DNA of 39,685 nucleotides from an uncultured bacterium (GTDB lineage: Bacteria; Patescibacteriota; Saccharimonadia; Saccharimonadales; Saccharimonadaceae). A model generated the notes under the pieces. The model had not been told where the DNA came from and did no database searches. It worked only from the letters and a program-made list of their open reading frames with translations. The position numbers were made by a program, and so were the translations under genes. Numbering within the stretch: position 1 is the stretch's first letter; every line of letters begins with the position of its first letter. The stretch lies in NCBI GenBank assembly GCA_903900345.1, contig CAIUMO010000011.1, positions 1 through 39,685 on the forward strand, written 5' to 3'. Below, one piece after another: positions 27,494 through 39,138 of the stretch.

Positions 27494-27569
27494 GCCGCTG
27501 TAGCTCAGCTGGTAGAGCGGCGCTTTCGTAAAGCGTAGGTCTCCGGTTCAAATCCGGACAGCGGCTCCA
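27494..27569 (+). tRNA. tRNA-Thr (anticodon CGT)
   Basis: Complete cloverleaf: acceptor GCCGCTG/CAGCGGC, anticodon loop TTCGTAA (CGT), T-loop TTCAAAT, encoded CCA. The discriminator is U, so the 3' end reads UCCA, complementary to the UGGA of the thrS leader at 30265. A membrane-protein gene begins 31 nt downstream with no terminator between. Confidence 0.96.
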
Positions 27570-30026: not shown

Positions 30027-30103
30027 TGGTGGGTCCTAAAGGATTCGAACCTTTCACCTCCACAACGTCAATGTGGCGCTCTAGCCAAATGAGCTAAGGA
30101 CCC
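30027..30103 (-). tRNA. tRNA-Val (anticodon GAC)
   Basis: Complete cloverleaf on the minus strand: acceptor GGGTCCT/AGGACCC, anticodon loop TTGACGT (GAC), T-loop TTCGAAT, discriminator A and encoded CCA. Confidence 0.96.
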
Positions 30104-30149: not shown

Positions 30150-30158
30150 TGATATTAT
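30150..30158 (+). promoter_or_regulatory. thrS leader extended -10
   Basis: TGA followed by TATTAT. The predicted start at 30165 is exactly the first base of the leader's 5' stem (GAACT). Confidence 0.55.
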
Positions 30159-30164
30159 ATAAAT

Positions 30165-30350
30165 GAACTATGACGTGATCCAACTAATCATCGAGTTCCG
30201 CGGGGAGTGGTAATGTGCGATAACGTTACTTCATAAGCGTCCTGTGATTAGCAGGAAAGTCCGGTGGAACCACCCGATTACAAGGGTCCGAGACATGCGA
30301 TATATAGATTTAAATAAAACTTTAAATTTAGCCATCGCATGTTTTTGTTT
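30165..30350 (+). promoter_or_regulatory. T-box riboswitch in the thrS leader
   Basis: Features in order: an ultrashort stem I, GAACT (30165-30169) with AGTTC (30194-30198), whose inner TGAT/ATCA stem closes the loop CCAACTA holding ACU, a Thr codon, at 30183-30185. Next a GTAATGT/ACGTTAC hairpin (30210-30229), then a TCCTG/CAGGA stem III (30240-30256). The antiterminator has helix A1 CGG/CCG (30262-30264 with 30288-30290), the 7-nt bulge UGGAACC (30265-30271), and helix A2 ACCC/GGGT. The bulge's UGGA complements the UCCA end of tRNA-Thr in this window; the other three tRNAs end ACCA or GCCA. A terminator follows. The mutual exclusion of antiterminator and terminator is only partly visible (bases 30290-30293). 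Confidence 0.75.
30290..30350 (+). terminator. Intrinsic terminator / attenuator before thrS
   Basis: CATGCGAT (30294-30301) pairs with ATCGCATG (30334-30341), extended by GAGA with TTTT. An inner ATTTAAA/TTTAAAT hairpin fills the loop. TTTTTGTTT follows. It lies between the T-box core and thrS, with AAGGAG of thrS left free. Confidence 0.8.
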
Positions 30351-30376
30351 TATCAAATTAAATAAGGAGCAGTGCA

Positions 30377-32188
30377 ATGAACGAAGACCAACTACATATA
30401 ATGCGACATAGTTTGGCACACATTACGGCTGCTGCGGTCCAGCGTCTATGGCCGAATGCAAAATTTGGCGTTGGTCCAACAGTTGATAATGGTTTTTACT
30501 ATGATATCGACTTGGGCGACACTAAAATATCCGAAGCCAACTTTCCAAAGATCGAGAAGGCAATTCGCGGAATTGTCGAATATGGTGATAATTTTGAAAA
30601 GATTGATATGCCGATTGATCAGGCTATCCAGTGGGCTAAAGATAACAATCAGCCTTACAAAGAAGAGTTATTAAACGACTTAAAACGCGCCGGTACAACA
30701 GTTGCCAAAGATTTAGACATGGATGAGATTGGTGTGGCGACAGACGGGCAATCGGTGGTCGAGACTGTAACTTTTTACAAAAATGGTAATTTCATGGATT
30801 TGTGTCGTGGTCCACATATAGCTAATACTAAAGACGTTGGTGCTTTTAAATTAATGCGCGTCGCCGGTGCTTATTGGCGCGGCAAAGAAACTAATCCACA
30901 AATGCAACGACTTTATGGCGTAGCTTTTGCCTCGCAAGTTGAACTAGATGAATATTTAGAACGACTCGAACAAGCTAAATTACGCGATCATCGCAAATTA
31001 GGCAAAGAATTAGATCTGTACACCTTGTCGCCGCTAGTTGGTGCTGGTTTGCCGCTATTTACGCCACGCGGAACAGTGCTGCGGGAAGTTGTTAGCCAAT
31101 ATTCGAATCAGTTACGTCAAGCACATGGTTTTCAAAAAGTTTGGACACCACATATTACTAAAAAAGAGCTATATGAGACTTCAGGTCACTGGGAAAAATT
31201 TGGTGAGGAGTTGTTTTTAGTCACCAGCCAAGAGACTAGTGATAGCTTTGTCCTAAAGCCGATGAATTGCCCTCATCATGGTCAGATTTTTGCTTCACGC
31301 TCACGTAGCTATAAGGAGATGCCGGTTAGGTACTTGGAAACAACAACTGACTATCGTGACGAAAAAACAGGTGAGTTAGGTGGTTTGAATCGCGTTCGGG
31401 CTCTAACACAAGATGATAGCCACGTATTTTGTACAACCGAACAGATACAGTCCGAGATTAATAATTTACTGGCTAGTGCCCGTGAATTATATGGATCATT
31501 TAATATGCCACTTCGCGTCAGGCTATCTTATCGTGATGAAGGTAATGGATATTTAGGTGATTTATCATTATGGGAATCGGCACAAGCACAGTTGAAGTCT
31601 GCGGTTATTGCCAACGGTTTGGAATATTTTGAAAAGACTGGCGAAGCGGCCTTTTATGGTCCAAAAATCGACTTTATGGCAACTGATGCGATTGGTCGTG
31701 AACACCAAGTCGCTACGGTTCAATTAGACTTTGTCCAGCCGGGTAGGTTTGGTCTGGAGTATATTGATCATGAAGGTAATGCGCAGACGCCAGTCATGAT
31801 TCATTGCGCGTTGCTTGGTTCAATTGAGCGTTTCTTGAGTGTATTTATCGAGCATACCAGTGGCTGGTTCCCGTTTTGGGCAGCTCCAGAGCAAATACGA
31901 ATTTTGACTATTAATGACACAGTGTCTGATTATGTATCTGAGATTACGTCCGTTTTAAATGGCGTGTTGCTTGATAAACCAATTAAATACAACGAAATTC
32001 GTTATACAGTTGATGATCGTAATGAATCATTAGGTAAAAAGATTCGTGAAGCAACAAATTGGAAGATTCCTGTCCAGTTGATTATTGGACAAAAGGATAA
32101 AGACGCTCGTGAAGTCAGTGTTCGCACTCAAACTGGTGAAGAAAAGATCAAACTAGACGACCTGTCGGGCTACTTACAGAAATTGTAA
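30377..32188 (+). CDS. thrS: Threonyl-tRNA synthetase lacking the TGS domain
   Basis: Class II synthetase that charges tRNA-Thr. The 603-residue protein starts within a few residues of the editing (N2) domain, whose motifs are HSLAH at about 11-15 and DLCRGPH near 138-144. The N-terminal TGS domain (about 60 residues in E. coli) is missing. The catalytic core shows KPMNCPHH, motif 2 YRDEKTGELGGLNRVRALTQ, and motif 3 region HCALLGSIERF. The C-terminal anticodon-binding domain begins near residue 500. AAGGAG is 7-8 nt before ATG 30377. Expression is probably controlled by the T-box leader. miaA follows after 6 nt. Confidence 0.95.
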   Translation: MNEDQLHIMRHSLAHITAAAVQRLWPNAKFGVGPTVDNGFYYDIDLGDTKISEANFPKIEKAIRGIVEYGDNFEKIDMPIDQAIQWAKDNNQPYKEELLNDLKRAGTTVAKDLDMDEIGVATDGQSVVETVTFYKNGNFMDLCRGPHIANTKDVGAFKLMRVAGAYWRGKETNPQMQRLYGVAFASQVELDEYLERLEQAKLRDHRKLGKELDLYTLSPLVGAGLPLFTPRGTVLREVVSQYSNQLRQAHGFQKVWTPHITKKELYETSGHWEKFGEELFLVTSQETSDSFVLKPMNCPHHGQIFASRSRSYKEMPVRYLETTTDYRDEKTGELGGLNRVRALTQDDSHVFCTTEQIQSEINNLLASARELYGSFNMPLRVRLSYRDEGNGYLGDLSLWESAQAQLKSAVIANGLEYFEKTGEAAFYGPKIDFMATDAIGREHQVATVQLDFVQPGRFGLEYIDHEGNAQTPVMIHCALLGSIERFLSVFIEHTSGWFPFWAAPEQIRILTINDTVSDYVSEITSVLNGVLLDKPIKYNEIRYTVDDRNESLGKKIREATNWKIPVQLIIGQKDKDAREVSVRTQTGEEKIKLDDLSGYLQKL

Positions 32189-32194
32189 TATGTC

Positions 32195-33091
32195 ATGGCA
32201 ATCTTAAAGCCAAAACCCCACCATCTGCCCCTTGTAGTGATAACTGGTCCAACTGCAAGTGGTAAAACATCACTAGCGATTGAAATTGCCCAGTGTTTTG
32301 GTGGCGAGATTATTTGCGCTGATTCACGCAGTGTTTATAAAACTATGGATATTGGTACTGCCAAACCAAGCAAGGCTGAACAGGCTAAAGTACCACATTG
32401 GGGTTTGGATCTAGTAGATCCAGATGATTATTTTTCGGCGGCTGATTTTAAAGTTTACGCCCTAAATAAAATAAACGAAATACGCCTGCGGGGTAATATT
32501 CCGTTTCTGGTTGGTGGCACTGGATTATATATTGACGCAGTCTTGTTCGATTACCAATTCGGTGGCAAGGTCGACGAAGAAACTAGGTCTAAATTGAATA
32601 ATATGAGCCTTTTGGAGCTGCAAGAATATTGCAATAAACACAACATAACAATGCCTGAGAATAAACTTAATAAACGCTATATAATTCGCAATATCGAACG
32701 AAATAACATAAGCTTATTGAGGCGGGATGATCCTATTGATGACGCCATTATTGTTGGAATAACAACAGATAAAGCAATTTTGCGCTCCAGAATTGAACAA
32801 AGAATTGAACAATTATTTGACGATGGTGTTGTAGATGAAGCAATAATGTTGGGCAAAAAGTATAGCTGGGATTTAGAGGCGATGAAGGGTAATATTTATC
32901 AATTAGCGCGACTATATCTAGCCGGTGAGCTAACTATGGAAAATATGAAGTCCAAACTTGTGACGTTGGATTGGCGACTTGCAAAAAGGCAAATGGCGTA
33001 TCTGAAGCGTAATAAATTTATAGAGTGGGCTGATATTGATAATGCCAAGATTTATCTACATGAACGGCTCGTCAAGTCTAATCAGACATGA
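32195..33091 (+). CDS. miaA: tRNA dimethylallyltransferase MiaA
   Basis: Transfers a dimethylallyl group to adenine 37 of tRNAs that read codons starting with U. The 298-residue protein has the P-loop GPTASGKTSLAIEIA near residue 19, the motif ICADSRSVYKTMDIGTAKPS (Ser where most have Gln), PHWGLDLVDPDDYFSAADF, and VGGTGLYIDAVLFDY. The C-terminal part contains TLDWRLAKRQMAYLKR, matching the usual RRYAKRQ-type segment. The start follows the thrS stop by 6 nt without a Shine-Dalgarno, so it is probably coupled to thrS and shares its T-box control. Confidence 0.93.
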   Translation: MAILKPKPHHLPLVVITGPTASGKTSLAIEIAQCFGGEIICADSRSVYKTMDIGTAKPSKAEQAKVPHWGLDLVDPDDYFSAADFKVYALNKINEIRLRGNIPFLVGGTGLYIDAVLFDYQFGGKVDEETRSKLNNMSLLELQEYCNKHNITMPENKLNKRYIIRNIERNNISLLRRDDPIDDAIIVGITTDKAILRSRIEQRIEQLFDDGVVDEAIMLGKKYSWDLEAMKGNIYQLARLYLAGELTMENMKSKLVTLDWRLAKRQMAYLKRNKFIEWADIDNAKIYLHERLVKSNQT

Positions 33092-35583: not shown

Positions 35584-35976
35584 GGCAGTTCATTAGGTGA
35601 TCGCCCCGCACTTTTTTTGTTTGATGTCGCAACGCGACATAACGAAGTATCGAACAAAAAAAGTGCGGGGAGGAAAGTCCGGGCAGCACAGAGCGTGACA
35701 GTCGCTAACGGCGACCGGGGGCGACCCTAGGGAAAGTGTCACAGAAACGAAACTACCATTCTTGACGCAAGTTAAGGACGGAAAAGATGAAACGAGTGGG
35801 GTAAGAGCCCACAGCATGCCATGGTGACATGGCGCGAAGGTAAACCCTGTCAGCTGCAAGGAGATCTGCATAAAGGGCGACTCGTCCGCAGGTCGCTATC
35901 CGCTTGATTTAGTAGGCAACTACTAGACTAGATAGATGATCATCCACGACAGAACCCGGCTTATCGATGGACTGCC
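35584..35976 (+). ncRNA. rnpB: RNase P RNA
   Basis: Catalytic RNA that matures tRNA 5' ends. Helix P1 pairs GGCAGTTCAT with ATGGACTGCC at the two ends. The P4 strands are AGGAAAGTCCGGG (35671) and ACAGAACCCGGCTTAT (35950). GGTAAGAGCCCACAGC and the following ATGCCATGGTGACATGGC are the P10-P12 region. P3 is unusually long: a 22-bp stem from CCCCGCACTTTTTTTG to its complement, capped by a GTCGC/GCGAC hairpin. Layout is of the ancestral A-type kind as far as can be judged by eye. It has its own promoter and a shared terminator. Confidence 0.96.
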
Positions 35977-35981
35977 AAATA

Positions 35982-38737: not shown

Positions 38738-39138
38738 GGGGCTGATTTTAGGTTTCGACGGAAGGACTTTAACAGATTATCTTGCAAGTCGAATGTACAC
38801 GTTACGTACAAACTTTAACTGCAAACTTTATTGCAAAAGCAAAAAACTTTGTCGGTGAGATTGCATCTGCTTTCCAACCACAAGTTTTAGCAACAGCTCG
38901 AATCTAATTTGAGCCATCCTATTGCCCAGGCGACATAGAGGTAGTGGGGTGTTATAAGTATGTCACTTACTGTATTAGTGTGCAGCAACGCTGATCCAGG
39001 AAATAATATTGCGCGACCACCAGAGCGTTTTAGCTAAATCTTTAGCTCTGAGGTCGTTAAAATTTAAGTTTAGCTAAACTTGTAGACAGATAATAGGTTA
39101 CCTTTCGGACCGGGGTGCGATTCCCCGCAGCTCCACCA
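38738..39138 (+). ncRNA. ssrA: tmRNA with a 28-residue tag
   Basis: Rescues stalled ribosomes. The 5' GGGGCTG pairs with 3' CAGCTCC, followed by discriminator A and CCA; GGTTTCGACGG near the 5' end and the GGGG-TGCGATT-CCCC T-arm are canonical. The resume codon is GCA at 38821, preceded by TTTAACT. The reading frame encodes ANFIAKAKNFVGEIASAF then QPQVLATARI and stops at TAA 38905-38907. That TAA sits in the loop of a GCTCGAA/TTTGAGC hairpin, the usual H5 position, which supports the frame. The tag is longer than the common 8-15 residues and ends in ARI rather than LAA. Confidence 0.93.

Follow-up and report, generated by a model that had tools for sequence, protein, structure and literature searches.

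The window considered here, that is, the whole stretch of 39,685 nucleotides (nt) on the forward strand of contig CAIUMO010000011.1 (GCA_903900345.1), raises the question of how the threonyl-tRNA synthetase gene, thrS, is controlled in a bacterium of the candidate phyla radiation (CPR). The close relatives of this thrS belong to Candidatus Saccharibacteria, Saccharimonas, and TM7, which agrees with the host proposed in a preliminary description of the same DNA. The leader in question occupies positions 30163-30350, with a divergent tRNA-Val gene on its 5' side (30027-30103, minus strand) and thrS on its 3' side. It is highly likely to be a T-box riboswitch controlling thrS by transcription attenuation, and it very probably reads tRNA-Thr directly. 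The evidence is comparative throughout and consists of the parts of the element, their pairings, the specificity of codon and bulge, and the overlap with a terminator; the binding of tRNA, the sensing of its charge, and the direction of regulation are what we infer from it. The parts are as follows.

30153-30158, + strand: -10-like promoter element TATTAT, read from the sequence, its end 4 nt upstream of the leader
30165-30198, + strand: ultrashort Stem I, with compensatory changes in 8 of 8 counted pairs
30165-30168 with 30195-30198, + strand: C-stem of Stem I, GAAC with GUUC
30169-30171, + strand: 3-nt bulge of Stem I
30172-30173 with 30193-30194, + strand: kink-turn of Stem I, tandem GA/GA
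30175-30179 with 30187-30191, + strand: upper helix of Stem I
30183-30185, + strand: putative specifier ACU (Thr), in the 7-nt terminal loop CCAACUA, with a purine next to it
30199-30229, + strand: H-type pseudoknot in the IIA/B position, formed by CGC (30199-30201) with GCG (30217-30219) and by the helix 30210-30216/30223-30229
30235-30239, + strand: RRRxG motif AAGCG, from sequence and alignment (motif as in PMC7583486)
30240-30256, + strand: Stem III, followed by AA (region 30235-30258), from sequence and alignment
30259-30294, + strand: antiterminator, with covarying helices A1 and A2
30259-30264 with 30288-30294, + strand: helix A1, GUC+CGG with CCG+GAC and a bulged A
30265-30271, + strand: T-box bulge UGGAACC
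30272-30275 with 30284-30287, + strand: helix A2, ACCC with GGGU
30293-30350, + strand: intrinsic terminator, with arms ACAUGCGAU (30293-30301) and AUCGCAUGU (30334-30342) and a U-rich tract to 30350, overlapping the 3' end of A1
30364-30369: ribosome-binding site AAGGAG, 3' of the terminator and U-tract and outside the hairpin
30377-32188, + strand: thrS, threonyl-tRNA synthetase, the presumed controlled gene (TIGR00418, 592 bits)

A reading of the sequence recovers every leader element named in the preliminary description at its position, including the 7-nt bulge, helix A2, and the intrinsic terminator ahead of thrS (30293-30342 plus the U-tract). Helix A1 is also present where it had been placed but is longer than the CGG/CCG then proposed, with six pairs around the bulged A.

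There is considerable evidence from related leaders that these parts are maintained as a structure. The thrS genes of 121 family genomes were collected by protein search and the upstream DNA of about 90 was taken, so that it was the gene and not the RNA that determined the selection; the same leader is found in more than half of these regions. The alignment comprises 53 leaders, its rows being chosen by UGGAAC and the loop pattern, and the few leaders dropped by this choice also have AACG or AACC loops or are cut off. When scored against a hand-written structure, the alignment has 87.3% paired cells, as against 24-42% with the partners slid by 1-3 columns, and cells changed on both sides number 185, compared with 62 in shuffles. 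Compensatory change is seen in 21 of the 27 pairs, and the covariation score is 0.409, where slid partners give no more than 0.126. Both helices of Stem I (4/4 pairs each), the pseudoknot, A1, and A2 contribute to the compensatory changes. The pseudoknot pairs are kept in 93% of cells, the third pair being UA in 29 leaders and CG in 12. The 3-nt bulge and tandem GA/GA of the kink-turn, the A-C of the loop, and UGGAAC are invariant. The T-box identity suggested for the leader from its sequence, the conservation in related thrS leaders on which it was staked, and the very short Stem I whose terminal loop holds ACU are thus upheld by the covarying helices, the kink-turn, the pseudoknot, the invariant bulge, and the specifier. 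By the mechanistic features tested, these sequences belong to the T-box family.

Some variation is found around this core. The middle of A1 differs between leaders, and the C-G pair seen there in the window is replaced by an internal loop in one group (GCCAAGG...CCGAGGC). Four leaders (L037, L063, L078, and L097) carry the bulge UGGAACA in place of UGGAACC, with the seventh base altered and A1 changed to UUUCGG. The 3b/3n position of the kink-turn (alignment columns 12 and 31) often sets C with C or U with U, as if a mismatch were maintained. Many leaders are without the Stem III hairpin (alignment columns 87-116) and read AAGU-AAAA-GUCC; Stem III has been described as indispensable for the discriminator (PMC7583486).

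The specifier can be read with a finder anchored on the kink-turn that leaves the loop letters unconstrained. It places the hairpin in 136 of 169 thrS leaders (33 unscored), and all 136 loops contain ACN followed by a purine (ACC in 105, ACU in 21, ACG in 10). The third base varies among synonymous Thr codons only, as expected from the Thr codon that had been proposed for the terminal loop. Other reading frames of the loop, such as Asn AAY or Pro CCN, were rejected since ACN alone occurs in all loops. A finder without the kink-turn anchor gave ACN in 100 of 131 leaders, chose competing hairpins in the rest, and was replaced by the anchored one. Likewise, GACG at 30172-30175 was considered as an ACG specifier for the CGU tRNA of the window and rejected, its GA being part of the kink-turn and the next position being C, U, or A. 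Distant members found with two covariance models, R1 and R2, stand before other synthetase genes and carry other codons. Those before glyS (nine in 8 genomes, including one tandem pair) have GGC or GGA in 9 of 9 and ACN in none. The tandem pair of ultrashort Gly T-boxes precedes glyS at L394 1243-1507 (G478). Before aspS (aspartate-tRNA ligase, L288) the loop has GAC and the bulge is UGGC; this is a single loop that also contains ACU, so it gives support only jointly with the bulge, which fits the G discriminator of tRNA-Asp (G in the genomes read). G is the usual discriminator of tRNA-Asp. The specifier hence matches the amino acid of the downstream gene in all three kinds of leader, and the codon changes before glyS and aspS read as natural specifier swaps that track this gene.

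The tRNA genes agree with this assignment. The genome has three tRNA-Thr genes (GGU, UGU, and CGU), all with a UCCA end, and the fourth base of the bulge is complementary to the discriminator of each. The only other tRNA found to end in UCCA across the genome is tRNA-Cys, and UGGA by itself is therefore not specific to Thr; the tRNA list is incomplete, lacking genes for tRNA-Ala and tRNA-Ile. UGGA fits the tRNA-Thr ends, as proposed, but the partner named for it is not the right one: the tRNA-Thr at 27494 has the anticodon CGU and does not read ACU, for which the best fit (by wobble) is tRNA-Thr(GGU) on another contig. Similarly, the tRNA-Gly discriminator is U in the two glyS T-box genomes checked, fitting UGGA; in the genome of the window it is A.

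A terminator-like hairpin with a U-tract follows the 3' strand of A1 (A1') in 51 of the 53 family leaders, as against 7.4% of shuffles, and shares 1-5 nt with A1. In the window, the foot of the terminator uses A30293 and C30294 of A1', or up to five bases when pairing of the U-tract is included, and its energy is -21.3 kcal/mol with the shared bases and -14.4 kcal/mol without them. Loss of two or three foot pairs beside a U-tract should strongly weaken intrinsic termination. One group of leaders has a U-A pair in A1 and U as the terminator partner, and the other has C-G and mostly C (or U). This three-way covariation supports a competition of antiterminator and terminator for the same bases, and together with the overlap and the prevalence of the hairpin it indicates that the two structures are mutually exclusive. 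The overlap had been noted as limited to a few bases, which is the case, and a departure from classical switching had been considered on that account. Being small yet conserved and covarying, it points the other way: the switch is probably classical mutual exclusion in a reduced form, with no new principle.

On this basis, RNA polymerase would start a few nt upstream of Stem I. The kink-turn Stem I would let the ACU of its terminal loop meet the tRNA-Thr(GGU) anticodon, and the tRNA would be positioned over the downstream antiterminator by the pseudoknot. The UCCA end of an uncharged tRNA would pair with UGGA of the bulge and fix A1 and A2; A1 would then hold the bases needed for the terminator foot by the U-tract, and thrS would be transcribed. 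With charged tRNA, the antiterminator would be left unfixed, the foot completed, and transcription stopped.

The Rfam search named in the preliminary description gives an end-to-end match, though one under the gathering score. At gathering thresholds, cmscan reports no match at the leader, while at permissive thresholds RF00230 aligns over 30161-30294 with 28.3 bits (E 9.7e-5), and over the whole 788-kb genome the leader is its sole match (E 6.6e-5). The leader is therefore missed by annotation, and the cut-off is passed by none of 151 family genomes, most likely because the model is dominated by long Stem I. With T-boxes of every size counted, RF00230 has matches in 115 of the 333 phylum genomes, 12 of them exceeding the cut-off, and T-boxes as such are therefore common in Patescibacteria.

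The distribution of the short elements was followed with R1, which was built from the 53 leaders and contains no gene information. With R1, 102 of 245 class genomes and 49 of 333 phylum genomes each yield one element; with R2, 93 of 380 phylum genomes yield elements, a count that includes some longer T-boxes matched in part. Almost all elements at the distant loci that were fetched lie directly before thrS (tblastn), and named carriers include TM7i (L146), TM7 oral taxon 350 (L177), and oral taxon 348 (L193). The element also appears to have been lost: at L046, L052, L054, L056, L058, L059, and L061, thrS follows the divergent tRNA-Val gene after a short gap that holds no leader. At L101, L110, L111, L118, and L120 (G097, G059, G063, G006, and G028) there is no T-box but a short Thr-rich open reading frame (ORF) before thrS, which ends T-T-(P/L)-R-G-stop and has a hairpin of the ACCC-UC-GGGGU type over its last codons. 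This ORF looks like a leader-peptide attenuator replacing the T-box. A second type of T-box in the family, with a longer Stem I and the specifier AUC, is represented by L002 1501-1653, where it precedes ileS, and by similar RF00230 matches; an apparently similar longer T-box stands before tag (DNA-3-methyladenine glycosylase) at L005.

Several observations weigh against a thrS T-box acting by attenuation. The leader RNA, when folded alone, favours another structure, in which the T-box bulge is hidden. The score of the leader is far from the RF00230 gathering cut-off of 93, which marks a limit of detection and no mechanistic feature. Several congeners and many family members are without the element. 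Transcriptional T-boxes are said to need in general the interdigitated T-loop motif (IDTM), which binds the tRNA elbow (PMC7583486), and the leader has none; its Stem I of about 34 nt ends at the specifier loop. Among distant elements, only 38 of 55 and 24 of 37 pass the terminator scan. As to the first of these, the alternative pairing GUUCC/GGAAC is lost in relatives in which GCUU replaces GUUC, and the fold was rejected as a conserved off-state since those leaders do not keep the pairing.

Other explanations can be set against the same evidence. A tRNA-Thr T-box acting mainly on translation, with the hairpin and U-tract secondary, would account for the size of Stem I and the terminal-loop specifier, which match the translational class (PMC7583486), and for the third or so of distant elements that fail the terminator scan. 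It is improbable in view of the strong hairpin and U-tract directly after A1' and sharing its bases, in the window and in nearly all aligned leaders; moreover, AAGGAG is not part of the hairpin, and the analysis found no pairing of it with a sequestrator, and hence no platform hiding the ribosome-binding site. Some support for an ordinary attenuator of another kind that resembles a T-box (one based on a leader peptide, say, or on protein binding to a hairpin) comes from the Thr-rich ORFs of T-box-less relatives. Such an attenuator is very improbable, as UGGAAC between covarying A1 and A2, the kink-turn, and the pseudoknot are unexplained by other known leader types, and the codon swaps follow the downstream synthetase. 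The low RF00230 score, the want of a distal Stem I, and the many relatives without the element would suit a longer T-box that has degenerated into a non-functional remnant. Against this stand the strong compensatory changes, the invariance of functional nucleotides, and the presence of a single copy per genome throughout the class, and it is the least probable explanation of all.

Taken as a transcriptional T-box, the leader can be compared with known systems. Two archetypes are recognised, a transcriptional one with a long Stem I and an elbow-binding IDTM, and a translational one, mostly with intermediate or ultrashort Stem I and chiefly from actinobacterial ileS (PMC7583486). With class I T-boxes (RF00230, for example the thrS leaders of Bacillota) the leader shares the specifier, the kink-turn, the IIA/B-type pseudoknot, Stem III with RRRxG, the UGGNACC bulge between A1 and A2, a competing intrinsic terminator, and an aminoacyl-tRNA synthetase gene downstream. 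In contrast to them, its Stem I reaches no farther than the specifier, now the hairpin loop, there is no IDTM, no S-turn-bearing Stem II is recognised, the terminator overlap is small, and the total is about 130 nt, below the Rfam cut-off. An inspection of the window by eye alone found no AGUA/GAA (S-turn) motif between Stem I and the pseudoknot. In 35 of the 53 homologous leaders a -10-like hexamer has its end 4-6 nt 5' of Stem I, and there is therefore little transcript room for a longer Stem I.

Class II ultrashort T-boxes have the specifier in the terminal loop. The resemblance to ultrashort T-boxes of Actinobacteria noted in the preliminary description is borne out by the terminal-loop specifier and the short covarying Stem I. 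The ultrashort kink-turn Stem I and the want of an IDTM are common to the ileS T-boxes of Actinobacteria (Sherwood et al. 2015, cited in PMC7583486) and the leader, whereas the latter has a terminator and not a sequestrator, and its relatives serve thrS, glyS, and aspS, not ileS, in Patescibacteria. The elements thus appear to combine a class II-type Stem I with a class I-type output. Thr leader-peptide attenuators have the regulated gene and the outcome in common with the leader but depend on the ribosome and on the Thr codons of a translated ORF, and no such ORF is recognised in the window leader.

The best reading is that the ultrashort Stem I, so far described for translational T-boxes of actinobacterial ileS, is here transcriptional. 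There is about an even chance that Patescibacteria hold a distinct, widespread minimal class of T-box. In this class the specifier would form the hairpin loop of an ultrashort Stem I, the IIA/B-type pseudoknot would follow Stem I directly, with no Stem II carrying an S-turn in between, the Stem III hairpin would often be missing, and the output would be termination of transcription. Such a class would show that tRNA can be selected quickly enough to control transcription with neither contact to the tRNA elbow nor an S-turn. According to PMC7583486, transcriptional control generally requires a long Stem I that binds the tRNA elbow, and an ultrashort Stem I accompanies translational control. This rule becomes testable with a natural minimal construct, because thrS and glyS leaders throughout the phylum have both an ultrashort Stem I and a terminator. 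The elements also suggest that host-dependent CPR bacteria sense the charge of their tRNAs. No report of T-boxes in Saccharibacteria or the CPR was found in the open-access literature, although Rfam or TBDB entries could hold some such sequences; the class II model of TBDB was searched only in Actinobacteria and truncated class I hits (PMC7778990). The covariance models of this analysis can be used for annotating these T-boxes.

Within the window, the assignment of thrS as the target is confirmed by the TIGR00418 match and agrees with the comparative evidence, and miaA starts 3' of it at 32195. Farther downstream on the + strand are RNase P RNA class A (35585-35979) and tmRNA (38738-39138).
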